A DNA stretch of 64,000 nucleotides from contig ML977031.1 in assembly GCA_010015675.1 (NCBI GenBank), positions 65,039 through 129,038 on the forward strand, read 5' to 3'. Of the stretch, positions 6,794 through 26,649 are shown in pieces (position 1 is the first letter of the stretch; every line of letters begins with the position of its first letter). The notes under the pieces were generated by a model that ran no database searches, had not been told where the DNA came from, and was given only the letters and a program-made list of their open reading frames with translations. The position numbers and the translations under genes were made by a program. Origin of the DNA: Byssothecium circinans (taxonomy: Eukaryota; Ascomycota; Dothideomycetes; Pleosporales; Massarinaceae).

Positions 6794-9700
6794 ACACTAT
6801 CCAGCGTGTCCAACAGTCCGTAGTATCAGCCGTAGTTTACGGCCCGTAGTCCCCCTCGGGGCGTACGTAAGTAGCCCTTTTGTGAGTCGTAAAGTAGCCG
6901 TACAGTAGCCATGTTTCGTGTATTTTACGTCGTAATTACGGCTATACGGGAGGGGGGGGTCAGTTTTGTAGTGTTTTATCGCCTAAAAAGGCTTAGATTC
7001 AGCGGAATTTGCTGTCTTTTTCGCGTACGTCTCGCGTACTACTACTGATAGTATATTATTAGTTTTATAACTACTCTTATTAATAGTATATTATTAATGG
7101 CCTTACGAAGCTTTTTACGCCCGTCGCAGGGCACCCAGAGTACCCAGGACTCGTCGCCGTCGCCGTCAGAGAGCTCCTATCACGCCGCTGCGTCCAGAAG
7201 GCTTGAGAAAGCTGCAGCTGCCCTCAACTCTCCGTCAGCCTCCTCCTCGCATGACAGCACCCCGGGGGCGTTCTCCTCTCACGAGTATCCTGCCGACGAG
7301 CGTCAGGTCGCTGGCCTAGAGTTTGACGTTGACTGGGACAATATTTGGCGGCAAAATAAGCAGCTGGTGCCTGACCAGGTGGGATATCAAGTCCAGCACA
7401 AGAGCGCCTTAAAGGGCGGCCGGAAGCTAGCTTCAATATGGAAATACGGCGTCGAGTTGCAATATCTAGAGGACGACAGAAGTAAGGCAAGGCTCTGGCT
7501 CTGCAGGGCCTGCCACTTAAGTAAGGACCGAGGAGCTTGTAAAAGCGTTAATGGGACTGCTCATATCGTCAGTCATCTCAAAACTGCCCATCAAATTAAC
7601 CTAGAGAGAGGTCTTATGCCCTTACCAGTTGACGCCCACCCAACCAACCCTTTCAACGCTGCGCGAGTAGCAGGGAGTAATACTTTTATCGCCCATCAGC
7701 CCTGGCAGGAGAATCAGCTCCAGGAGGCCTTTGTCGACTGGGTTATACTCAAGGACCTATCCTTCAGCGTCGCCTATTCAGCGTCTACGCGGGGCGTCAT
7801 GACATGGAACCGTCACGACCTTTTGCGCGCCCTGCCGTCGTCGGCGACTACGCTCTCGAAGTACGTAGATACGGCGCTGGGGGAGCGAAAGGAGGAGGTT
7901 AAGAAGCTCCTACTATTAGCGCAGAGCAAAATAAGCCTGAGTATGGATATATGGACGTTAGGTAATAATTTGTCGTTCCTTAGGGTTGTTGCGCACTTTA
8001 TAGGTAGGTCTTAGCGTCTCCTAATAGGAAATCGGCGATAGGGGATGAAGTTAACAAACTTAGGACCTTTATATAAACAGTACGACGTTCTTATTGCCTT
8101 CCACAACCTCTTCGGCGACTATACAGCGGCGTATCAAGCTCAGGTCATCCTCAGCGTTATCAGCGACTACGATTTCAGTCAGCAATTTAACTGCTTCGTC
8201 AGCGACAACGCCAGCAGCAACGACACAAAGTTTATCCGGTGCGTAGCCAGGTCTAGAGACCTCTATCTTAGGCCTCAGCACTAAATACGCTGCGCAGGCC
8301 ACATCATTAACCTAGTTGTCAAGTCCGTCATCTATGGTAGTGGAGTGAGTAAGTGGGAGGCTGAGCTAGCTCAGGCAGCTCCTCAGGACCAATTTCAGCT
8401 CTTTCGAAGGCATGGAGTCGTCGGCAAGCTACACAACTTCGTCAACGCTGTCTGCGCATCTTACAAGCGCTGAGAGCTATTCCTAACTGTCTAGAAGGAG
8501 CTTAGTGAGACTGACGCCCTCTGGGCCTTTAGCACCCTTAACCTCCGCCAGGACGGCGGCGTGAGGTGGCACTCAGTATATTTAATGCTTCTTCGTTGCA
8601 GAGAGCTTAAAGAGCCTATCTGACGCTTTATCCGCAAGCTCCGGGACGCCACTGATCTAGACAACGACGAGTCTGACGACGATAATGAGATAGCGACTGC
8701 GCCTCTCGCCCGCGACTACGACCCACCGCTCAACTCGCTCTCAGAGGATGAATAGGACGAGGTGGATACAATAATTAACCTCTTACAAGAGTTCTATAAG
8801 ATGTGCCGGCGTCTTAAGGGCTCCATCAGCGTCTCTGGGTTCAGGTCTCTCTGGCAGACTATTGTTAACTTGCAGGAGCTCTACGACTCGCTCTTGGAGC
8901 GTCGCGACGCCCTGGCGGGTGAGTCAGACAGCTCCTTTGTCAAGAACGGCGTCAAGTTTGGGCTTGAGAAGCTCATATCATATTAGACCTAGATAGTAAT
9001 AGACCCAGAGCCGTCCTACTATTGTATCGCGACGATTTTACACCCAAAGCTCCGTCTCACATGGTTCAAGGACCACTGGGCAAGGCACCCGTCGTGGCAC
9101 AAGAAGGCCAAGCAGTCAGCGCGTAAGGTCTTCAAGCAATACCTTGAGGCTGAGAGCGATCCTGAGGAGCTAGCTGTCTCTCAGCCATCCCGGCGGAAGC
9201 TTCCTGAGGGTATTTTAGGCTCCCGTTACTCCAAAACAATAAGCGTTAATCCTATGCTACTTACTAGGTCAAGGTCTCACAAGCGTCAAAAACGCCCGTC
9301 TCAACTTAACAAGTATTTCGACGACCTAAGAGAGGACCTTGACAACCCAAGTGAGGCCTATCAAGGGCTCCTTGATAACCCACAAGCTTGGTGGCTCTCC
9401 GTGGGCCGTACCAAGTATCCCATCGTCTTTAAGATGTCCCTCGATTTCCTCTCAATACCTGCCACCTCATGTGAGTGTGAGAGGGCCTTTTCAACTGCAA
9501 AACGCACAATTACAGACGACCGAAACCGCCTCTCTCCAACGACTATTAAGGCCTTACAACTCCAGAAAAACTGGCTCCGGAGAGGCGTCGTTAAGAGCTA
9601 CGTACTTGAGCTTCAAGAGTGGATATTACAGCGAGATTTACGTCAATTTCCAGCTCCCTAGGGGCCTAAGGACCTTCTCCCAGAGTGATGACAGGTATCA

Positions 9701-11840: not shown

Positions 11841-13070
11841 ATGAAGTTCCTCAACATCCTTTTGGGTGTGTCCACTGCGTTCGTCGCTGGAGTTTCCGCC
11901 ATCGGTGACTGCGACAGCGGTCCCTTCGCTCCCCTCCAGCCTGTCGGCGATAAGAAGGATGCCAGCAAGTCCGACGTCGACATCTGCGAAACACAATACA
12001 AATCCGGCTCCGTCGTCCGCGGCATCGAGGTCTGGGGCTCCAAGGACCGCATCTCGGGGATCCAGCTCACCTACTCCAACCAAGAAAAGTCCCACATGAT
12101 TGGTGCCCGTCAGGGCGACAAGAACACAAAACTCGATTGGGACCCGTTCCTCACCTCGGTCTCGCGCGTGGTCCTCTGGTCAGACAAGGATGCGAAGCAG
12201 TTGGGCGGCTTGAGGGTCGAACTGAGCAATGGGCAGAACTTGGAGATGAAGCAGGACAAGGTCAGCGGTGTTACTTTCAGCCCGGATATCGGTGCCGGTA
12301 TCCTGCTGGGAGGATATGGCAGGGCGGATGACCATATCACGGCTTGGGGATGGATGTTCCTTCAGGACAAGGTTGGCAAGATCGAAGTTGGTGATATCAA
12401 GTGGGATCAAAGCCAGGATGAGTTTGTCAAGTCGCAAAAGTATGCAACTAACCCCTACCCCTAACTCTTGTATGTTTGTACAGCATTGCTAACTAGTCGC
12501 AACAGGGGCATCAAGCAGACTACAATGGCTTCCAACAAGCACTACAACACCGCCAGCAATGCAACCACCCTTGCCCTCGACGTCACCAAGACAGTCACAA
12601 AGTCCACGTCGTACTCCCAGAGCTCGCACTTCAACTTCGGCATGGGCTACAGCCTTGAGATCAGCGGGCAAGTCGCCGGCGCGGGCCCCAAGTTCTCCAC
12701 CGAAGCGAAGTGGGAGATTGGAACTGAGAGCAGGAAAGAGTGGTCTGAGACTGAGTCTGTGGCTCTCAAGTTCGTCATCACGCAGCCCGCTTTGCCCGGA
12801 AAGACGACCATGTGCGCGGGCTTTGTCACCACGGGAGAGTTTGATATGGGCTATGATTCTAAGGTTACGCTTGTGCTGAAGAACGGGAAGAAGTTTGAGT
12901 TCAGGGAGAGGGGTACCAGGAAGCAGACCGTGTTCGGTAACTCGCAGACTGAGTGCGCGGATGCGGACGGTGACCATTTGAGCGAGGAGCCGTATGACTT
13001 TGTCAAGAAGAACAAGAAGGGAAAGAGGGAGGAGCAGGGCAGGTTCATCTCTATGCCTTTCAACGCTTAA
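11841..13070 (+). CDS. Secreted protein with jacalin-like and aerolysin-like domains
   Basis: Two exons (11841-12439, 12506-13070; 66-nt intron with GTATGC/CAG) give 387 aa in frame. Residues 1-20 are a signal peptide (positive start, hydrophobic core, AxA-type end), so the product is secreted. Residues about 35-195 look like a jacalin-type beta-prism with repeated Gly-rich strands. The second exon encodes a long Ser/Thr-rich, alternating polar beta region that resembles the membrane-insertion module of aerolysin/natterin-type beta-pore-forming proteins. Several Cys residues are spread through the protein (signal-adjacent and C-terminal). Known relatives bind glycans and oligomerise on membranes; whether this one forms pores is inference. 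No partner gene is adjacent; the NLR gene downstream converges on it. Confidence 0.75.
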
Positions 13071-13567
13071 GGGATTGTCTTGAATTTTTTTGCATTCATG
13101 TTCATTTCTAGACGGTTGGGTGGGTGTTGTTTTATAGATCTTATAACTTTATGCTATACATTTACCACGCGCGAAAACTGGTCCTCAGCCCATGGGTCTC
13201 TCATTTCATCCACAACTCTGGCCCATGGGTCGCCTCATGCCTATCAACTGCGGAAAGGCGACAAAAGCTGGGAGGGATAATTGGTGAGGTCGGTGACGAC
13301 TTGGCCTAAACGAAGAAGAGAAGATTTTTGCCACTGATCGAAGATACCTTCGGTAGGTCTATGGTTTGATGTTCCCGGACTGGGAAGATTGGTGACAAGT
13401 GGACACCTTGGGGATGAAGGAGGGAGGTACGCGTGTCAGTTATGCGACGAAATTGCGGAAAGAACCATCGATCATCACTATGTTAGGAGGATGTGATGAT
13501 GGAGCGTGCTGTCGAGGGATATGGACGATAGTATGGCAGTGATGGACAAAGGCGAATCTGGCCTCTG
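13071..13567. other. Convergent intergenic region
   Basis: The 3' ends of the aerolysin-fold gene (+) and the NLR gene (-) face each other here. Nothing else is seen. Confidence 0.5.
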
Positions 13568-16500
13568 TCAATATACCCCATCATCGCATTTCCCTTTTCG
13601 TCTTTTCGACTTCTTGACCTTACCAGAACCGACTTGATCCTGCTTTCGACCCTTTGATTTCCTTTTCTTGCATGCGACACGCGTATGCCCCGCCATCCGA
13701 CAATTGCTGCAACACCGCTTACCATACAGACGGTCGTCCACGGCCAAAGACAATCGAGTACCTAGGCTTTGATTATCCGTGTCGTAGTCTCTTTGCAGGC
13801 GAGCGACCAGGTCTCGCAATTCTGCGACGGTGAGTTTGTTTGCCCAGGATGCTGAAGGCATAGCGACGATGAAGCAGGTGATGAAAACATCGAGTTCTCG
13901 TCTATCGCTTGAGGTATATCCCTCTGCAAAATCGAGGATTTCGGCTTTTGCAGTATCATCACTACCTTCGTCGAGCTTTGGAAGGAGGAAGAGGAGCGTA
14001 TCCATGCGATCGTTGAGAGGGGGCCGTGTATCGTCGTTGTGGATCCAAGAGTCGAAAGCGAAGTGAATAAGGGCGCCGGGATTGAAAACAGATGTAGGAG
14101 CTTTCTGTTTGAGATATTGTGCGAAGCCTAAGCGTGCAGCTAGCGTGAGCATATCTGGTTCGCGAACTGTTGTGATATCAAAGGCAAAGATATCAGTTTC
14201 TTCTACCGGTACCCGGGCGCGGGAAAGTTCAACTTCCGGTGGTCGTTCATAGAAGTATCTTCCATAGGATCCAAGGATTGTCGTTTGAGCTGCGCTGGCT
14301 GCTGTCCAGTGGGATCTCCCCTTGAAGGAAGTTCCTTCACCCCTCTCGTTTCTAGAATTGAACGTGTTGTTGTACTTTGTCATGCACTCGTCCATGGATG
14401 TGATAAACTCCTCCAGCCGATCTCTTGTCTCAGGCTGTGCGTCGCGATAGAGTCGGAGAATTGACTCGACATACTCAGTCATGATACGTTCCGTGAACTC
14501 TGCGCCAGAGATTTTTATAATAGACAGACACGCAGCCGCTAGATGCCTGTGAAATTCCAAGTCCGGATGAACAAAGTCTTTCATTTCGGATTTGACATCG
14601 TCAGCTTGGAGGAACTCTGCGACAGTGCGATGCAAATATTCCACCTTCGAAAGCATCATATCCTCAAGGCTCAAACCTACTTCTCTGTGCGACACCTCTA
14701 TCCACGTCACTCCGAGAAGGCCGGAACAGCGGCTCTGCACTCGCGCTGTAGTTTGCTGTGTGTACCAAGCCAAAGTGCGGGAACTCAAGGGCTGGAGTCC
14801 TTGACTGAGACTTTCCTGCGGTGGTCGCAATGCGTAATGTAGCAGCAGTGTGCAAAGTTCATACTTCGCGAATGATCGCCAAGTCTGCAGTAGCTGCAAG
14901 ATTTGAACTGCTTGCGTCCGATATTCGTGAGGTATTTGGAAGAGCATCCGCCGGTAGAGAGCTTTCAGGTCGTCCGGAAGATCGTGAAGCTTGGCTTGCA
15001 GTTCCTCTATGTTATCGCCTGCTTCGAGACCGTCCAGGAGCAGCTTCACCACAAGCCTGACCCACAGAAATACACCCTTTGCCTTCTCTTTGATCTCAGT
15101 TATGATTTGGCGGCTGATATCTGGATAAATGCTTGCCAGTGATTGCATGATAGCATGTGATGCTAGCTTTCCTTGGACATAGGTCTCGATATCTCTTTTG
15201 GTCAAATCTTCCAGTTTCAATGAAGGGCAGCCGCGGAAAGCATGCAGTGAGGATGTAATGGGCCGACTGGAAACCACAAACTTGACTCGTGTTGAACACA
15301 AGCTGGTGATGAAATCTATGAGATCGGAGTGTTCTTCCTCAAACTCATCAATGCCATCGATGAAAATCGCCATCTTCAAAAAATTTCGAGATTTCTCAAG
15401 TAGGACATTCCAAGCCCTTCTCAATTCGTTGCACGTGATGTCTCCAACGTCAGATTCCCACTCCCTACTCTGGTACAGATCGGGGAAAACAGCAGGGGTG
15501 AGTTCCGGATGCTCTCTGAGAACACTCCATAGCAGGGATCTTAGGAGGCCTGCGGTGGTCTTCTGCAATGGCGTGCCAAGGTTCCAGAAAAAGAAGCTCG
15601 TCACGACAAGTTCCATGTCGTCGATAGAGGCCCATTCGAGAAGCGAATTTTTAGTGCTCGGGTGATCCAAAATGTACTTCATCAGTGTAGACTTTCCACT
15701 TCCTGCCTTTCCGTTGATGTAATAAGGCTTGGATACCTCTCGTGATAGGTGCTTTGTGAGACAGCTCCATGCACGGTCTGTTGTTGATTCTTCGAAAAAC
15801 CACGAAAAAGTTTCCTGATAGGCGAGAGGAACTTCTTCGTATCGTAACGTGATCTGGCGGAACGACAACCAATTCAGGATTTTGCTCTCCCTAATCTGCA
15901 ATGACCCTTTTCGTTTCCCCTCGAGGTCTTTGAGGCATTTTTGTACTTCGTCGTTGAGGGCATACAGCTGTGGCTCCTGCTGGACTTCTAAAACGTTTGT
16001 GAGAAGCTGGGCGGCATCGCGCGATGTCGCATTGTCGCCAGCTTTTGTTTTGCGCAACTCTTGTAGATGCGTGAGAACCTCCTCATGGTTCTGTCGTGCA
16101 CCGGTCCGCAGGGCAAGTAGCGTCGCCAGTGTTAGTGCGCTTCGCAAACGATCGATCTCCTCAACATAGTTGTTGATCTTGTAATGAGAGAAGTGAATTT
16201 TAATCGCTGTTCCAACACTTTGAAGACTTCTCGTAGAAGTCCTGGGTACCAAAGAATCTAAGTACTTCAGGAACTCGGAACTGGACTTTCGACAATCGGC
16301 GGTGACATCGACGAGATGCTGAATATTACCACAGTAAGCAATATGCAAATTAAAACATGTAGTAGTTATGTCTCACCTGGTCTTCGTGAGATAAGTGTTG
16401 AGTACGCGCTTGTGCTGTGAGACGTTCATGTACAACCTCTGCTTGCGTCGACAGGCTGTTGACAAGATCTCGCAAAGAAGAAAACGAGCGGGGCCATCCC

Positions 16501-16598
16501 GTTTCGCGAATGGAGTTTGCTTCTGAAACAAGCTTGCTAGCAAACTCTACAAACTGAACGACGTTTCCAGCGAGGCCCACCGCGACCAAAGCTTCCAT
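13568..16598 (-). CDS. NACHT-domain NLR (STAND ATPase) with C-terminal zinc knuckle
   Basis: Two exons (16598-16377, 16318-13568; 58-nt intron, phase 0) encode 990 aa. The N-terminus MEALVAVGLAGNVVQFVEF is the fungal STAND N-terminal helical domain found on many NLRs (about 1-130). The NACHT core has a Walker A GKAGSGKST (about 277-285) and Walker B MAIFIDGIDEFEE (about 390-402), with the LVVTSFFFW segment between them. A winged-helix/helical region follows. No ankyrin, WD40 or TPR repeats are seen, so there is no obvious repeat sensor. The last 50 residues carry CSNC-x4-H-x4-C (about C944, C947, H952, C957), a CCHC zinc knuckle, then a strongly basic Lys/Arg tail. Fungal NLRs of this type control heterokaryon incompatibility and cell death. 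The gene lies on the same strand as, and 322 bp after, the nucleotide kinase. Confidence 0.88.
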
Positions 16599-16920
16599 AC
16601 CGACAGATGACAGCGACGCGCTGGACGAAATGCGCTTTCAGCTGAGCTGAACTTAAACAGGGGGGAAGGAAAGCTCATTGAATAATAGTAACGATGAGGA
16701 GATTCTTGGAATAATTAGTAGAAGAAGGGATACGGGGCACGGGATCCGGTGAACGCGGCCACGTAGCCTTGCATGCATAATAATACATGTTATGATTCGT
16801 CAGGTTGGGGCAGGCTGACCCAGGCTGACCCAGGCTGCAAAGCAAACACACCTTAAAGCATATAAGTGTGGTATTGACAGGTCGTTTTATCTGGCCTATC
16901 AGCTGCGATCCAAGACTTTC
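16599..16920. other. Spacer between NLR start and kinase stop
   Basis: This is the promoter region of the NLR gene. It contains a short triple repeat of CAGGCTGACC (about 16810-16840). No coding signal is seen. Confidence 0.5.
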
Positions 16921-17653
16921 CTAGGCTGCAGACGTTCCCTTAGCGATGATCCGCTGCCACAGATCACTTTCGTTCAGATTTTTCATCAGCACTTCTAAAT
17001 TCTCCTCTTTGGTCCCATTCGCATCGACCTATACTTCTATTAGCTTCATGGCAGTATTAGAGTTTGTAGAACTGTTACCTCCATCAATATCCCGGCGTCC
17101 ACATACAGCTTCTCTACCGGTGGACTCTCCCTTTCGTACTCAGCGAATCTTTTCTCGAACTTCTCTGCACTATCATTGCTATCTCTTCCGCGCGACAGGT
17201 ACCTGAAAAGCGCCAGCTATTAGATCGTTGTACGTTTCAATAAGCTTGCGGGAATTCTCACCTCATCTTCGCCTTCTCCTTCTCCACCACAACCTTCAGC
17301 ACAGCATCCGGCCTATATCCCGACTTCTCATCGAATGACTCAGCCTGCTCTTTGCATCGTGGGAACCCGTCTATTAGGATGCCATTTGCGGTCGTCCCTG
17401 CGTCTTTGATTGCCTGGTCAAGGAAAGGTCCTAATTCCGATGAGGTGAGGAAGCCTTGGTTCTCGAGTTTGTTTTCGATGATAGCAGCGAGAGGCGTGTC
17501 AGGATTCGCTTTCCTGTAGGCGCGCAGAGTGTCGCCAACAGAGAAATGCACCAAGTTATGGATGCGGGCGAGATGAGTGCAGAGAGTTCCCTTACCGGCG
17601 CCGGGAGCTCCTAGGACGAAGATGATAGAGAAGGTACTCGCTGAGACGGGCAT
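16921..17653 (-). CDS. UMP/CMP-kinase-like nucleoside monophosphate kinase, paired with viperin
   Basis: Three exons (17653-17262, 17202-17079, 17028-16921; introns 59 and 50 nt) give 207 aa, the normal size for this family. The P-loop GAPGAGKGT spans residues 15-23, the NMP-binding helix FSVGDTLR 37-44, and IDGFPR 94-99. The exon 2 segment SRGRDSNDSAEKFEKRF carries the LID arginines and the D-x-x-E-x-x-x-x-R-x pattern of UMP-CMP kinases rather than the long LID of adenylate kinase. It should phosphorylate a pyrimidine or other NMP to the diphosphate in the cytosol. The gene is divergent from viperin with 406 bp between the start codons, an arrangement that recalls vertebrate CMPK2-RSAD2, although CMPK2 belongs to a different (thymidylate-kinase-like) family. 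Exact substrate is not shown by sequence. Confidence 0.87.
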
Positions 17654-18059
17654 GGTATGGAGTTGCTATGGTAGAACTTTTCCGAAGCAAAGAAGAAATT
17701 ATACAAAAGCTTTTAAATGCTCAGGGAGATTGGTGTAGAGGCATGTGACCGCGTGCATGCTATTCATTGTTGTTACACAGTAGAAACCCGAGAGCAAGCG
17801 GTGACAAAGTGATGAATTGTGTGTGGAGCGGTGAAGCTCAGGAGAAGTGACTATATAGGCGGGAGCCGACGCTAGGCCGGAATAGTTAAGTACTCAACAA
17901 TTGTGATCGCGTTTTATCACGCGTCCGGAGTCATCCATCAAACTGCCCTGATTGGTCTCCGCAACGCGACTTAAAAGCTCCCCACATCCCCACATCGCGC
18001 ACCCCAACCCCGTTCGTTACACGATATCACCCTCGTATTCCCATCTTTCTGCTTGCAAG
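17654..18059. promoter_or_regulatory. Shared divergent promoter of the kinase and viperin genes
   Basis: The 406 bp between the two start codons must contain both promoters. A TATA-like CTATATAGG lies at about 17851 on the viperin side, and an AT-rich TATACAAAAGC lies near the kinase start. Co-expression is inferred from the divergent layout. Confidence 0.6.
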
Positions 18060-19133
18060 ATGGCGTTCCTTTCACTCCTACTCTTAGCGTGTAGTTCAAT
18101 CTTCGCTGTCGTCTTCTTGTTCTACGTTACAAAGCCTTCCATATCACCTAAAGCTGGCGTGCAACGGCCATTGCCCAAAGAGAAGCTAGTGCCCAACGAC
18201 CCAGACGCCCCCGTATCCGTCAATTACTTCCCCTCACGACAATGTAACTACGCTTGCGGTTTCTGTTTCCACACAGATACCTCGTCCTATATGCTGCCGA
18301 TCGACGAGGCGAAAAAAGGTCTACGATTGCTGCGAGAAGCTGGAATGAAGAAACTTAATATCGCTGGTGGAGAACCTTTCCTACACCCGAAGTTCCTTAG
18401 TAAGATTCTACAGTACTGCAAGGAGGATCTTTATGTCGAAAGTATCAGTATCGTGAGCAATGGAAGCAAGATCAGAGAGGACTTCTTGGAAAAACACGCC
18501 CAATGGCTCGATATTCTCGCCATCTCATGCGACTCATTCGACGCCGAAACGAACCACAAGATTGGCCGAGGTGAAGATAACGGAAAAGGGAAAGTGAACA
18601 CTCATGTCGAGTACCTATTCCGCGTTGCTGAATGGTGTCGCAAATACAACATTAAGTTCAAGTTGAACACGGTCGTTAATACCTACAACTGGGATGAGGA
18701 TATGGTCGAACACATCGAGAGGCTGGCTCCTTTTCGCTGGAAAGTGTTCCAATGTCTGATTGTGGAAGGAGAAAACGAGGACGAGACACGCAAACGCGAC
18801 GCGAGGAAGTTTTTAGTAACAGAAGAACAGTGGCGGACGTTCTGCGATAAACATAAACACTTGGACTGCTACATACCTGAGGATAACAACACAATGGCAA
18901 GCAGCTATCTGCTACTAGACGAGAACATGTGCTTTTTGGATAAGGGCGAAGGGGAGATGAAGAAGAGTAGAAGCATTTTGAAAGTCGGAGTGAAGCAGGC
19001 TATGAAGGAGGTTGTCTGGGATAAGGAATCGTTCCTTGATCGGGGTGGTATCTATGAGTGGACGAGAGATGGTCTTGGACAGCAGCAACGTGGTGGGTGT
19101 GGTAATGGAGATAAGAAGGAACTGGAGTGGTAG
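18060..19133 (+). CDS. RSAD2: Viperin (radical SAM ddhNTP synthase)
   Basis: Single exon, 357 aa (human viperin has 361). Residues 2-24 form a hydrophobic/amphipathic N-terminal helix that would hold it on ER or lipid-droplet membrane. The 4Fe-4S motif is C62-NYA-C66-GF-C69, then FCFHT, GGEPF (103-107, SAM binding), SIVSNGS (about 130-136) and LAISCDSFD (153-161), nearly identical in layout to animal viperin. RWKVFQCL and the VEGEN segment, which help bind nucleotide in known viperins, are present. The last residue is Trp, as in animal viperins, where it recruits the CIA iron-sulfur machinery. Viperins convert CTP (or other NTPs) to 3'-deoxy-3',4'-didehydro-NTP, a chain terminator of viral polymerases. 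An in-frame ATG at 17952 would add 36 residues of non-family sequence before the helix, so 18060 is preferred. Confidence 0.95.
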   Translation: MAFLSLLLLACSSIFAVVFLFYVTKPSISPKAGVQRPLPKEKLVPNDPDAPVSVNYFPSRQCNYACGFCFHTDTSSYMLPIDEAKKGLRLLREAGMKKLNIAGGEPFLHPKFLSKILQYCKEDLYVESISIVSNGSKIREDFLEKHAQWLDILAISCDSFDAETNHKIGRGEDNGKGKVNTHVEYLFRVAEWCRKYNIKFKLNTVVNTYNWDEDMVEHIERLAPFRWKVFQCLIVEGENEDETRKRDARKFLVTEEQWRTFCDKHKHLDCYIPEDNNTMASSYLLLDENMCFLDKGEGEMKKSRSILKVGVKQAMKEVVWDKESFLDRGGIYEWTRDGLGQQQRGGCGNGDKKELEW

Positions 19134-20874
19134 GCCGGAGTTTTGAGATGTTTCATGGATAATGGTAGGCTTTTAAGATATTGTAAAGGGGATTAATTTC
19201 GATGCAATGTGCTCAATAGAAATTATGTGAATCATATTCCTACTCTAACGAGTGCTTAGATTCATCTCTTCAAACTCCTTTCGCGTCCTATTCGCCGATA
19301 TGTACTTCGCCTCGCCTCAAATGCCGCCATCGGAAGGACTCCGTCGCGGCGGCAACGCCAGCCGAATAGCTGGCGTCACCTTCCTGCTTGCATCCGACAG
19401 CATCCGAATAACACCGTATCTCTACGAAACTCTTGACGTGTGGCGACAGACCATAACGCTCATAAGAAGGCAAGGGATCTGAATTGTGGAACATTGCAAT
19501 GCGTATTACCCAATTCATCTTCCTACTCCTCTCCCCTCCTCCCTTGCATTATCCTTGTTCACATATATCGATCACAAGGTTACCATGTACTGTTCTACTA
19601 CTGACAGTATCAACATGGACCACTATATTGACCAGACCCGTTCAGATATCACAGGACGCCTTGGAATTCACTACATGGGATACGTCGGCGCACCGTCACA
19701 ATGGCATATTGGTGCGGTCGAATGCGCACAATCTGTGTCCAGATTGGGGGCAATGGGTTAGTGGAGTAGTAAGAAGGCATTTGTGTAAGGGAAGTATAGG
19801 TCGAAGCTTGATCATTTCAGAAATCTTCGGAAGAAGGTGAGTCGAAGAAGGCTCGAACTAGTCCTGCAACGTATTGAGGGTCTTGGCAGATCAAAGAGGC
19901 CGAGCGGTGGAGTTGCGGCCATTGCGAGTTAAATGTAGGGCCATAAGGGCCAAGTTCGTAGCGGTTATTACTAATATCTGGCTTCACACGGGTTGATCGA
20001 GCGGTGGAAATTGTCAAATGGGCATGGGGCAACCGTTTAGCTATGCATTCCTTGAGTTTGGCAATGTAGTGTCGTGCGGCAATCCCTGACTTAGCGATCT
20101 TACCTGTGTCCTTTATTGATCACGGCCCGCCGTTGATGAGCACCAGTGTGCATCTTCTGGAAATCTAAAATAGGAAATAGGTGTGGATGAATCACTAGGC
20201 TGCATGGATGCAAGCAATCTCTGCAGCTGTGACCTTTGTAAAATCGTTGGGTGAATAGCTATGTCCCGTGTATGGCACCACTGTGGCTTTACCTGTGGCG
20301 CAGCAGTCTCAGCTTTCATATCTAACTTTCTCTTCCAAAACCAGCACAAGTGCCTCATCTCGGATATAGATATCCGTAGAAGGGTTTTACTTTTCTGCGA
20401 AGCGCCTTGATTTCTTTTGAGTTTCGAGTCGCCTATCCCGACTCGTTTGATGATGAGCTGGCAACTATTCGGCCAATCTCGGTCCTACCTTAATTGATCT
20501 GGATTGTTTCTTGTTTCTGTTCCAGCGGTGACGTTCACTTAGCGGACACGGATATAAAGCCTAAAAATGCTCCAGCAATATCTCATCTTCAACCTCTAGT
20601 GTCAGATTTGCGATACTTGGCAACATATCGCTTGCTATTATACCGACAAAGCTGACGAACATTTTCACCCGAGTGTTCACCGACAGGATTATCCCAGCAT
20701 CGCAGATTGGGCCTCCCTGCATCAAAAAACATACGATTATTCGGAGGTAATAACGAAAAGAACCCGCACTAAGGCGGAAGAAAAAATTTCAACGGGCGAA
20801 ACAAATAAACGTGGCCGACTTCTTGACAGCTGCACGATTTCATCGGATCGAACTTCAGAAACGCGACGAACAAA
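19134..20874. other. Gene-free 1.7 kb
   Basis: Only short frames without homology are seen. A small perfect hairpin, CGCCAGC-6 nt-GCTGGCG, lies at about 19355-19374; no RNA gene can be assigned to it. The right end (about 20800-20874) is the 5' region of the next gene. Confidence 0.5.
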
Positions 20875-21159
20875 ATGGCATCTACTAGCGGCACCGCCAC
20901 CGAATCCCAAGAGAAAATACCCTATGTTACACTACCACCTGGTGCCAATCTTTTGGAGTACCTTTCGAGACCTTACAACTGCTCTGCGCCGAAATGCCCG
21001 CACCGATACCTGACAAGATCTGACCTCTCAAAACATGAGAGGGATGCGCATCCACGCCTACGCCAGCCTTCGGCAGAGGCGCATTCGGACTACTTTTCTG
21101 ATGAAGATCCTATCGGATCGTCTGGAGCTGCGTCTTCACACGCAGACTCTTCCTCGTAA
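20875..21159 (+). CDS. Small single C2H2 zinc-finger protein
   Basis: A 94-aa frame with start ACAAAATGGC. Residues about 34-58 hold one C2H2 finger: YNCSAPKCPHRYLTRSDLSK followed by HERDAH (C-x4-C-x12-H-x4-H). The tail is acidic/Ser-rich (SDYFSDEDPIGSSGAASSH). It may be a complete small protein, or exon 1 of a longer or decayed gene, since 21160-22776 has no clean continuation. The function is unknown; it could bind DNA or RNA through its finger. Confidence 0.5.
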   Translation: MASTSGTATESQEKIPYVTLPPGANLLEYLSRPYNCSAPKCPHRYLTRSDLSKHERDAHPRLRQPSAEAHSDYFSDEDPIGSSGAASSHADSSS

Positions 21160-22776
21160 TTTGACACGGAAGCAATGCTGGTACGTCGCCACCGACTGCA
21201 AAAGGTTCGCCAATAATAGGATCCAGGCATCCCGGAAGCTCTCACGAGTTCAACGGCGAAATCGCTCAAGTTAGATCGAGTCAATCTCAGGGTTAAGCGG
21301 ATATGTTTGATTTATCGAAGGCAAGGGAAAATAATGGCAAGCTTAAGGTGGTGTGCGAGAAGAGCAGAGCAGCCTCGATTTCGGATTCGGGCCTACTTAC
21401 TTAATAATGAAACACGGGAAACTTATAACCACACACACGTTCGAGGTCCCAAATACACATCCAGATTTTATAGTTACGATTACGCAGAAATTCAAAATAT
21501 TCTCTCAGGGTCCTCGCCTTTTTTTCTAGCTTCGATTGCCACAATGTTATTAACCGTACAGCCAGAGATCATCTTCTCTACGAAGCTTGGGTCTGTCCAA
21601 CATGTTCCGCTCGTTGGGAAGAAATAATAATACTACACTGACTTAATCGCCAAACCAGTATGATTACGTCGAAGAGCGACAAAAGAGACGCATCGGGAAA
21701 TATAAGTTCGAAGCTATAGTTACTGGCGAAGTCCTAAAGTTCCAGTGTTTTCAGCCAACACAATTAACTTGGGAAAGTAAAGATTATTAGGATAACTATG
21801 TCGAGGTAAACCAGCAAACAATAGAGCACTCCTTTCCTCTATCCACGAGGCCTCTGATCCAAATTATTAGGTCGGTACCACAGTCCAAACATTCGGTCAA
21901 GCTGCGAATAGTTACTCCTCTGGATCCAGAACGACTTGGCTTTCATCAATCCCAGTAAGCCCTCCACGACTGTGTTAATAACTTCTCCAATGTCCAATCC
22001 AGGCTAGCTATCGCTTCGCCAACGCCCTTCCTCTTCACATTTTCCTATTGATATAGCTCAACGTGCAGTCGCCCATGTCAATGCGACTCGTCGTTCCCAT
22101 CCAATACCAACCTTCGATGAGCTCATATTGCGATCGGGTCACAGCCGCCTCTATCCGGCTGGGATTTACCGAAGGGTATAGTAATATAGCAATATACGCG
22201 GCTGGAGAGAAGAATGATAGAACTGAGTAACCCAGAGTGGTGGAACTCCAAAATTTTATACAGATGAATGGTCTGCTAATAGTGTCAACTAGCTAGCATA
22301 CAATCTCGTTCAGCAAAAAGGTTTCGGGCTATCGACATAGCTCATGACATCACAAGGCTGGTGCTCAAGTGTGCCTCATCAGAAACGTCCACACCGGAAA
22401 ACTATGCACAGCATAAGGTAGGGTTGCGCGCGATCGTGAGTGGTTGTGCTGCCGAGAACAATTACGGGCAGGGGTATCATTGGTCGGAATCCTCAGCACA
22501 GTGACCTGTGCATTTTAACAGCGCACTGCGCCCCTCACCAGGCCATGACTTGATAAAACGGCAGTCTCGTTGGGCGGATATCGCCTCAAATATGGTCATT
22601 CTTGTTCAGCGAAGTTTAACGAACACTTCCAACTCAATCTTCACCAACTGGATCGAATATTACTTTGTACGTACAGACTTGGGCACGACCGGACGGATAA
22701 ATCCGACATCACTGTAGACTCGCAGCGCCAACCGCATTTTAGTCCTGTCCTTACAGAGGCTGGGGAAGGTTTGAGG
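21160..22776. other. Region without a supported gene
   Basis: AT-rich with many stops in all frames. Short open frames (for example 22508-22717) could be 5' exons of the next gene, but I could not join them in phase with confidence. It may also be decayed coding sequence. Confidence 0.4.
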
Positions 22777-25700
22777 ATGGAAACTAAGTGGATAGGATAT
22801 GAGTTGGTACCTATGGTAGCCTCATCTACAGGCTATGTTTGCCCATTTTGTACAGATAGAGTGCATAGCTACCGATGTTCGGACGATTTAGAAAGGTATG
22901 CCTCCATTGAAAGATATTATGGAAGCCCTATTATACCTCAAGGTACACACTACTTCGTTGCGCTGACCGCATTTTATATTTCAGACACGTTCATTTCTAC
23001 CACGGAAACACGAAAAAAGACGATCCATTGCTGCGTGAAGCTCTCGCCCAAGGGACAGAGGGAGAATCATCTTCACCACACCAACACGGAAAGACACTAC
23101 CTGATTATATCCCTGAATTTGCGACTGGTAACCCAGAATCGCAAGGATCTAGGATATCATTCTTGCACGACATTGTCAATCCTATGGGAGCCTCACAGAG
23201 GCCGTCACAGGTAGAACCGGAAGTAAGTACTCATTTCAATGAGTCTGTTTCCACTCCTGTTCGTCTTTCCAAGAACCTGAAGATCCAGCTTTCTGACGAA
23301 AACGACCTTACACAGGGTCGGGAGGGTGATTACGGAACAACAAGCTCACCTCCTACTTCTCATCCGCGTGCTATGGGTGCAGTCCCTCGTTGGGGCTTAC
23401 CGGAGATCTTATCGCCTTTGATGATGGAGGATTGTTTCCTTGAAGAGCTATCTGAGGAGGTTCAAAGGGCGGAAGGTGTTGATAATGCTGCAGGCCAATA
23501 CGTACAAACGGATTCTGGATATGGATCGGCACAGTACGGCGGGAGCCACAATGCCTCCAAAAGCAAAGTGGACGAGGAAGAAGACAGGGAAACAGTGTAT
23601 ACTCAGGATACGGTGTTGAATCCCAAAACCGCGGATATTTACGTCGAAGAATGCGCTAAGCTCATCTTCGAAAGCTTAGACCGAGATCTGAGGGATAGTG
23701 AGCGCATGGAATTCTTGTTAATCAAATTAGAAGAAATCCTGAAGTCTTTCAGTGTACGGCTTGGCTATGAAAGCTCGTCACCAGAAGGAGCGCGACTCGC
23801 AAAGTTTATCCACCAGAGCCGAAGGTAAGTATCACCTTTCGAAATCGCTTCTCCCTAGATCGTCAAACTAATTCCTCACTCAGACATATTGCCCAGGTGC
23901 TGAGAGGGCTACTTTTGGAAATACCTGATAGTCCAAAGTCCTCTTCGTCAGCAGCTGACGGTATGGATTTTCAGGAGAAGGTTGGTCTATGGAATTTCCA
24001 AAGCGAAGATAAAGTATACGACAAATTGGACGAGGTATTAGATGACGGAAACGTACAACGAGATGTGCATATTTCTGAAGACAACAATCTCGACAATCTC
24101 GACAATCTCGAGAGTTTAGATGACGACGATGAGCTACTGCCACATACAGCCCTCTATCGCAGGCTTATTGAAGAGAGTGGCGCTTTCAAGTGGCTACTTG
24201 CTCAACTCCAGAACGCAGTCCACCTTTTCACACCATGGCCAAGAAATATCAAGCAAGAGATACGGAAAGGAATCCAAAGCCAGTTACCCAGTCAGTTCAA
24301 GTTCAGCAGATCAGACCTTACGCAGGTGATAAAAGCAGAATACAACGTTGTCTTGGATCTTGTCGGCTTCCTAGTCGAACAAGAATATACTGGAGATCTC
24401 GGAGATGCCTTTGGGAACGTGATAACGATCACCGGGAATGATAAATATGCTCAAACTGAGACTTGCATGAACTATCTCTGTCAAACCTGGCCACTGTTAG
24501 GTCAGTGTTTGGTACATGTTCTCAAATGTGCAGTCCGGTCGACAAAAGGGTTACTACATACATGTAAGACCTCCAATCGCATTGCTCTTTGATCGTTCTG
24601 ATGATTGGCTACAGGTAATTCAGAAGATGGGACCGTCTTGACCGCATGCATACAGACGGGAATGCTCAAAGTCGCTGCTGTGGGCAGCAGGGACTCGATA
24701 GCAGATGTCGGAGAACAGCTTGCTTGGCTGGGATCTTCTCTACAACAGCCACCTACTCCTGATGGCACCTCATGTTCCTTGGTGTTCGCAAATTTGCGTC
24801 CTATTCCCCACAACAAATTTCAACCACTCGGAGTAGCGGTCCCTCAAGTAGAAGTGGAATATACTATCACCTTCGATCTTCAGACATTCGAAGGTCCCTA
24901 CAGAAAATCGAAAAAGAACGGCACTTGTTGGCATAATCTGTTTCTACACCCTGTCATAGCGATGGGGTTCCCTATCCCAGCCAGGGATGTGTCAAAGTAC
25001 GGTCTGGAAATACCGCTTCACATAATGGCTACACTTGCGCAAGCAAAGCGTGTGACATTGTATGATGGGAAAATGTACGCCAAAGGATTCTCCACAGTAC
25101 TTTTCCCAACCCAAAAGTCTGAAGACATAATCTCCTGGCATTTATTGTACAACGAAGACCGGAAACGTCTATCATACAATGACTCTCGTATCGAGGACAC
25201 TTCAATCGGGGATCTTACATTCAAAGACTTGGAAACATCTCGCCATATAGTAGGGTGGACGTCTTCTGCCAAGACATTTGCTGGTATGTATTCCCTACAG
25301 TTCTAACTGAGTAATTTTTGGTCTTAGCTAACTTCGAGACCATAGGTGCACCCGAAGCAAATCATAGCATACAAAGGTCAGGACTCTCCAGCCGAGATGC
25401 TGGATGTGTACTGGAGAAAGTATCTTTGTCAGTGGGAAAAATTGTGAACGGCGGCGCGAGTGTTGCAGTTGGTATTAAAGACGTCCCTCTGCACCTGAAA
25501 AGAGAAGGATCATATGTTGATCAGATCCAAGACGCATACAACAACTACGTGATCTTCTACGACGTCGATGACAAACGGTCATGGCTTGTCAATAGTGCGA
25601 CGGCATTACTCCATATCGTGAGAGTCTCGCTGCACGAGAACATGACTGGTCCATTCCGATCTCATTATTTGTTTGACCCTACACTGTTGACAGAAGCAAC

Positions 25701-26649
25701 GACCACGCATACTCCACAATCAGCGATCGAGGTTTTGACCAATCAGTCAAATATGGAACTCAAGATATTGCGCGGAGCAGCTGAAATCTGGACCGAGACG
25801 ACTAACGAAGAAGATGGCAAAATCAAGGTTATCGAGAAGAGAAAAGATAAGTTTGTTCACTTCCAAGACCGTGTGGATGAGAAATGGCATATACTCGAAC
25901 AAATACTGGATCAGCAGTCCAAATCTAGCTCAGGCGGAGTTAGGCTATCGATGCCCGGCCGGCAATATCTCGAAGGTTTTGACTTCGTCGACGTGGCTTC
26001 ACGCATCTCGGATCTTCGACCAAGAGTTACCCAACTGCAAGCACGAGGGAAAGCTTGGGTTGACTTCATCAGGTCTATTCGCGCCGTGACGTTGTTTGGA
26101 CGCGGCTTCGGCGAACTTATCCAACCAAGCGAGAACAGCAACGAGCTTTGCCATCATTGGCTCAAAGTACCTGCACAAAAAGACTATCTCGTCGTCTCCG
26201 TCTCCGATCTTGAGGGTATAGCCAGGCGAAGAGGGGATCCCGATGCTACACCAATGATCCTAGTAGACGACATCTGCTGGCACAAGCCCGACAAGCTCTT
26301 TGAAACCTGTAGCTGTAAATCTCCTCAACTGAAAAGAAAGTATAGCGGACTGAAGTCACTGAGCGATGGTTGCGAGAGAGTGCAAGTACTGCTTCCTGCG
26401 AAGGCCGGCTTAGGCCGTCTTGTTTCTCCGGGACCAATCGACCGTATGCGGAATGGCGCAGTCATCTTTGGATATACTAAGGCTTTCTCGCTGCGTTGGG
26501 CAGATCACGGTGTTCCTAAACGAGAAGAGTTGAGCCCTGAGCCCGAGGAACTGCAGCTCAGTCCGTACGACAGTGGCTTAGGCTCCAGCCTACAGTCATC
26601 GACGTCTGAGAGGGAGGCTTCACCTAAGCGTCAGCGAAGTCGTCAGTGA
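22777..26649 (+). CDS. Large fungal-specific C2H2-finger protein of unknown function
   Basis: Five exons (22777-22895, 22985-23824, 23884-24563, 24615-25283, 25328-26649) join in phase to 1,209 aa. The first splice creates a C2H2 finger: CPFCTDRVHSYRC...LERHVHFYH. A low-complexity acidic linker follows (including LDN repeats near 24090). The middle (KYGLEIPLHIMATLA, TVLFPTQKSEDIISWHLLYN) and the C-terminus (CERVQVLLPAKAGLGRLVS, NGAVIFGYTKAFSLRW) are blocks I recognise from a widespread family of large fungal proteins of unknown role, members of which often sit near NLR or incompatibility genes. The start is uncertain; the frame is open upstream to 22570 and earlier exons are possible. No transmembrane segment or NTPase motif is seen. 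Confidence 0.75.

Follow-up and report, generated by a model that had tools for sequence, protein, structure and literature searches.

Does a filamentous fungus encode a viperin and a nucleotide kinase as one working unit? This question is raised by a locus of Byssothecium circinans (Ascomycota; Dothideomycetes; Pleosporales) on contig ML977031.1 of assembly GCA_010015675.1 (48.4 Mb in 109 contigs). The locus lies within a stretch of 64,000 nucleotides (nt) that was analysed as a whole and is called the window here (C55:65039-129038, where C55 is our handle for this contig). A viperin gene and a kinase gene of the adenylate kinase (ADK) family are encoded divergently, with their start codons 406 bp apart, and a gene for a NACHT protein lies beyond the kinase. 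Whether the divergent genes form a functional two-gene module is, in our judgement, evenly balanced. An earlier note on the window had described viperin, kinase and NACHT gene, the first two as divergent neighbours. The gene models agree with it in the outer boundaries of all three genes and in the divergent arrangement, and they add introns, which the note had not given. The features of the pair are as follows.

18060..19133, + strand: viperin (radical S-adenosylmethionine, SAM, enzyme), 357 aa, with N-terminal hydrophobic helix, CX3CX2C cluster and C-terminal Trp
18228..18230, + strand: codon of viperin Phe57 (in NYF), from the viperin alignment
18243..18266, + strand: radical SAM cysteines C62, C66 and C69 of the viperin, invariant in 16 of 16 alignment rows
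17654..18059, no strand: intergenic region of 406 bp common to kinase and viperin, a presumed bidirectional promoter
17262..17653, - strand: kinase exon 1 (P-loop, NMP-binding part, DGFPR; NMP, nucleoside monophosphate)
17079..17202, - strand: kinase exon 2 (shortened LID)
16921..17028, - strand: kinase exon 3, with the stop codon at 16921-16923

The viperin and its kinase neighbour

The viperin frame is open from 17952 to 19133 (+), and from its first ATG at 18060 it encodes the protein in a single exon without intron. The protein reaches 254.8 bits against the family model NF038283 (viperin_w_prok, cut-off 180). Since it stays below the cut-off of the narrower, exception-type model TIGR04278 (393.1 bits, cut-off 450), it is not filed under the narrow name of that model. 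Nine distinct sequences of the PDB match with E-values below 1e-90, all of them viperins by molecule name or entry title, and the best of these is viperin 2 of Trichoderma virens (9dfn, 379.9 bits). The protein is 55.7% and 52.4% identical to the two solved T. virens viperins and 55.9% identical to the Nematostella viperin. In an alignment of 16 rows (the window viperin and 15 others, including 9dfu, an engineered F40H variant), the cysteines C62, C66 and C69 of the CX3CX2C cluster and the GGE motif (G103, G104, E105) are invariant. Studied viperins take hydrogen from a nucleoside triphosphate by SAM chemistry, yielding a chain-terminating 3'-deoxy-3',4'-didehydro-nucleotide (ddhNTP). Judged from its sequence, the window protein is most likely such a ddhNTP synthase.

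Eukaryotic viperins carry an N-terminal membrane-associating helix and a C-terminal Trp. The window viperin matches both features: it ends in ELEW, its hydropathy peaks at 2.66 (19-residue window), and a helix is predicted for residues 2-24 (predicted local distance difference test, pLDDT, about 82 over residues 1-20). The AlphaFold model behind this helix was built without an alignment and is poor (mean pLDDT 49.5); it was used for the N-terminal helix and for PDB titles. Membrane anchoring of the viperin is thus predicted as most likely.

Residue 57 of the window viperin is Phe, while His occupies this site in all 14 other natural viperins of the alignment. Wild-type T. virens viperin 2 (9dfn) also carries Phe at this site, whereas its F40H variant 9dfu and T. 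virens viperin 1 (PDB 6b4c) have His. The entry 9dfn is titled as the second viperin-like enzyme of T. virens, with CTP and SAM bound, so that the Phe is compatible with nucleotide binding. The window protein thus resembles T. virens viperin 2 in the Phe that replaces His in the NYx motif and in the C-terminal Trp, and both species also hold a His viperin. It differs in its overall distance, being no nearer to T. virens viperin 2 than to the Nematostella viperin. A tree places both T. virens proteins in one group with moderate support (83/91; three of six inner forks open), and because of this grouping the shared Phe may be convergent.

The His viperin of B. circinans lies on another contig, C64, on the - strand (C64:76843-75962, with a further exon from 75889 to about 75671). 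It comprises 369 aa, contains one intron of 72 nt, ends in DLEF without a final Trp and is 51.8% identical to the window viperin; with 247.9 bits it also passes NF038283. The combination of a Phe and a His viperin in one genome, held likewise by T. virens, offers a natural comparison of the role of this residue.

The kinase comprises 207 aa, encoded by three exons with introns of 59 and 50 nt, both GT..AG; introns of the genes modelled here (window genes and second viperin) measure 50-72 nt, a size that, like the many NPHP3_N loci and DUF7791, fits a filamentous fungus. Its score against Pfam ADK (PF00406) is 88.4 bits (cut-off 26.8), and it stays below the subfamily cut-offs of adenylate kinase, UMP-CMP kinase and AK1. 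It retains the P-loop GAPGAGKGT, DTLR and DGFPR as well as, in the LID, the later KR. Compared with the yeast URA6-type UMP kinase (1uky) and AK1 (3adk), it belongs to the same superfamily and shares P-loop, NMP-binding part and DGFPR; it differs from both by a short LID without SGR segment and by scores below the UMP-CMP and AK1 cut-offs. The earlier note had called it adenylate/UMP-CMP type. The ADK family holds, but the UMP-CMP label does not: the protein scores 98.3 bits against the UMP-CMP model TIGR01359 (cut-off 207.6), its best PDB matches are AK1 and UMP-CMP kinase equally (E about 1e-20), and a small tree does not separate these two kinships (one fork 87/93, the other four of five open, end branch of the kinase 9.3).

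Five ADK-family loci were found in the genome: the window kinase and one each on contigs C47, C5, C9 and C8. The C47 paralogue is URA6-like (279 bits to 1uky), and the C8 paralogue (C8:565423-565977, L040) is UMP-CMP-like with a LID that is shortened too. No close copy of the window kinase was found in the genome, and its kin on C47 and C8 share 31% and 33% identity with it; the gene is therefore regarded as a diverged extra copy. By its sequence, it most likely encodes an extra, diverged and atypical NMP kinase of the ADK family.

Nucleotide kinases are already known as neighbours of viperins, and what differs here is the ADK family of the kinase. In vertebrates, viperin (RSAD2) and the nucleotide kinase CMPK2 are genomic neighbours, and CMPK2 belongs to the thymidylate-kinase family; the window pair is alike in the adjoining genes and differs in the kinase family. 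For prokaryotes, 30 plasmid records matching viperin were surveyed. Fourteen look like viperins (13 so annotated, and H17); all but H26 and H28 were opened, which gave 12 loci. In five of the 12 loci, the gene directly upstream of the viperin, on its strand, is annotated as a nucleotide kinase (plasmids of Nostoc, Sphaerospermopsis, Anabaena and Pseudoalteromonas); four of the five are cyanobacterial and hence not independent. In the other seven, no annotated kinase lies within 3 kb, with unannotated or hypothetical genes left unchecked. These plasmid loci, like the PADLOC pVip systems, share with the window the nucleotide kinase neighbour. All five plasmid kinases match both Thymidylate_kin (PF02223) and dNK (PF01712) and are co-directional with the viperin, whereas the window kinase is of the ADK family and divergent. 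Among 14 Pfam families searched up to E 1, it matches neither Thymidylate_kin nor dNK, and BLASTP shows no similarity to the kinase beside the Nostoc plasmid viperin (E 6.4). The claim of the earlier note that the kinase comes from a different family is thus borne out against the five plasmid kinases. Its suggestion that the pairing arose independently is plausible from the two families. If the pair is real, convergent recruitment of a kinase would be the natural reading.

For a single locus, with 12,000-18,000 genes assumed (not counted) and five ADK-family loci, an ADK gene would be the immediate neighbour of the viperin by chance in 0.06-0.08% of cases, and any nucleotide kinase in 0.17-0.25% (15 genes assumed). 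That the immediate divergent neighbour of the window viperin is a kinase by chance is therefore unlikely.

The common intergenic region and the NACHT gene

The region between viperin and kinase contains an insertion, without which the gap would measure about 272 bp.

17771..17899, + strand: dispersed element of 129 nt resembling a long terminal repeat (LTR), delimited by repeat copies, pairwise boundaries and element ends
17766..17770, no strand: target-site duplication ATTGT, left
17900..17904, no strand: target-site duplication ATTGT, right

The insertion has TG...CA ends with ATTGT on both sides. It recurs in at least 39 other places of the genome (of 119 candidates, 40 were scored), and seven of these copies lie no more than about 1 kb from a contig end. 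Ten fuller copies measure 157-162 nt, mostly with TG...CA ends, and pairwise similarity ends at about 157-166 nt in most pairs compared; two copies at contig ends (L071 and L072) have 346 nt in common. Five flanking bases are duplicated in all ten copies printed (by eye). The element hence bears the marks of an LTR or a similar short element. It carries a TATATAGG box (17852-17859) directed towards the viperin. Of the 40 copies, including that of the window, 1, 2 and 3 lie within 3, 6 and 10 kb of loci of the NPHP3_N family, to which the NACHT protein belongs (expected 0.5, 1.0 and 1.7), which is no clear enrichment. The DNA fold of 17765-17935 is no better than that of shuffles (z 0.02), and no Rfam match was obtained for 13000-24000 up to E 0.1. 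Downstream of the viperin lies a second dispersed repeat (19908-19996, about 88 nt), which has at least 39 other copies.

The NACHT gene comprises the following features.

16377..16598, - strand: exon 1, N-terminal part of the NACHT protein
13568..16318, - strand: exon 2, with NPHP3_N/NACHT NTPase, DUF7791 and C-terminal knuckle
13670..13711, - strand: CX2CX4HX4C knuckle (aa 944-957), followed by a Lys/Arg-rich tail

The protein of 990 aa is encoded with one intron (16376-16319, GT..AG). The frame of its second exon matches NPHP3_N (77.7 bits, cut-off 24.8), NACHT (29.3, cut-off 26.7) and DUF7791 (59.4, cut-off 28.1), and a P-loop GKAGSGKST and FIDGIDEF can be read in the protein. ANK, TPR or WD40 sensor repeats were not found among 15 Pfam families up to E 1, and because such C-terminal repeats are lacking, the protein is filed simply as a NACHT STAND protein. 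By eye, its N-terminus resembles those of L034 and L036, two related loci; no Pfam match over cut-off to an effector or death domain was obtained. The CCHC-type knuckle does not reach the model PF00098. Shuffling the protein 20,000 times reproduced its motif three times. Of the 11 other DUF7791 loci, six related ones were examined in their two longest frames, and none has the motif; the genome holds 12 DUF7791 loci, the window NACHT protein included. Judged from knuckle and basic tail, binding of RNA or DNA by the tail is possible.

About 102 NPHP3_N loci were counted in the genome (from 110 match rows, those within 3 kb of each other being merged; some are fragments or contain stops), and about 1.1% of random points fall within 2.5 kb of one. 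The odds of an NPHP3_N gene among the four nearest genes amount to 2.2-3.3% (100 genes assumed). Since the locus had been chosen because it looked interesting, this adjacency is weak evidence, and the immune-receptor-like gene may stand beside the pair by chance; that it takes part in a module with viperin and kinase is improbable. The role of sensor or cell-death arm, which the earlier note had drawn from position, is accordingly not supported beyond that position, given the roughly 102 NPHP3_N loci and the contig of the second viperin, which yields neither an NPHP3_N nor an ADK match.

In the remaining surroundings, Pfam searches of ten frames at 7-29 kb matched only a hAT dimerisation region, a LYC1-like acetyltransferase and a jacalin-like lectin. 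The hAT transposase remains lie in separate frames between 7052 and 9661 (PF05699 in 8993-9658) and look decayed. The jacalin-like lectin domain (11841-13067; PF01419, 30.2 bits) has a signal-like start and is followed by an in-frame stop, maybe intronic, and a further frame without Pfam match. Consecutive long open frames at 22911-26649 belong to at least one gene, and Pfam gave no match for them at E-values up to 0.01. An AT-rich block occupies positions 1-2000. Its GC content is 0.26-0.27, against 0.41-0.56 in every other 1-kb step up to 34 kb, and it resembles the result of repeat-induced mutation.

Module, chance neighbours or another use

If viperin and kinase work together, the viperin would make a chain-terminating ddhNTP from a nucleoside triphosphate, presumably for an antiviral purpose. 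The kinase would supply the pyrimidine triphosphate substrate of the viperin, acting at the step from NMP to NDP; alternatively, it might re-phosphorylate ddh-nucleotides and thus recycle ddhNMP. Both genes would be switched on together from their common promoter, and the NACHT protein might, or might not, trigger them, a step proposed with little confidence.

Several observations weigh against such a module. In UMP-CMP kinase, a catalytic arginine sits in the SGR segment of the LID, and this segment is absent from the LID of the window kinase by alignment, which makes its activity putative. A motif common to the promoters of both viperins was not found above shuffles. The whole 196-kb contig C64 yields no ADK-family or NPHP3_N match (E 0.001), and by eye no kinase or NACHT protein lies near the second viperin among the listed frames of C64:56001-96000 (40 kb); these results argue against the idea that fungal viperins generally require neighbours of these kinds. 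PADLOC has one model each for viperins with kinases, without kinases and with a fused kinase. All three recognise the window viperin, and the model for viperins not associated with kinases does so best (232.3 bits; with kinases 220.1, fusion 194.8). No PADLOC model matches the window kinase. Both findings argue against a simple copy of the arrangement in prokaryotes. Furthermore, divergent close gene pairs are common in compact fungal genomes, and the pair was seen in one genome; two scans each of genome and viral contig collections (12, 6, 119 and 102 stretches matched) confirmed no relative.

These points have to be weighed against the alternatives. Chance neighbourhood would mean that a genuine fungal viperin acts alone, as the C64 copy may, next to a diverged kinase duplicate. 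The C64 contig without an ADK-family match, the strong divergence of the kinase with its long end branch in a poorly resolved tree, the seven of 12 plasmid viperin loci without annotated kinase within 3 kb and the best PADLOC model all agree with it. The odds of 0.06-0.25% for an ADK or any nucleotide kinase neighbour (assumed gene counts) and the known habit of viperins to have kinase neighbours oppose it, and we consider it rather unlikely. A pair that serves a non-antiviral use, e.g. control of nucleotide pools or production of nucleoside analogues, would agree with the data, which hold no virus-related evidence, and with Phe57 as a departure from the His of the 14 other natural viperins. 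The same Phe is natural in T. virens viperin 2, which was solved with CTP and SAM, and the ten frames scanned with Pfam contain no biosynthetic cluster, so that this use appears quite improbable.

An immune module of all three genes would have the NACHT protein sense viral (perhaps RNA) cues via knuckle and basic tail, with viperin and kinase as nucleotide-based effector arm. Adjacency and gene order, the P-loop and FIDGIDEF of the NACHT protein, and the rarity of the knuckle among shuffles and related loci point towards it. The many NPHP3_N loci of the genome, none of them on the contig of the second viperin, the lack of sensor repeats or a death domain over Pfam cut-off and the knuckle below PF00098 point away from it, and it is regarded as improbable. 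Very improbable is the fullest version, a fungal antiviral cassette composed of an RNA-sensing NACHT protein, a His-to-Phe viperin with changed nucleotide preference, an independently recruited ADK-family kinase and a TATA box supplied by the LTR to the common promoter; for the last element, an analogy exists in the LTRs of endogenous retroviruses that wire vertebrate interferon genes.

If the pair is conserved, viperins would have taken on nucleotide kinases on two or more occasions, each time from another kinase family, which would argue for substrate supply or salvage of ddh-nucleotides as a basic need of viperin immunity. Fungal virology would then gain an enzyme pair that can be tested in vitro.

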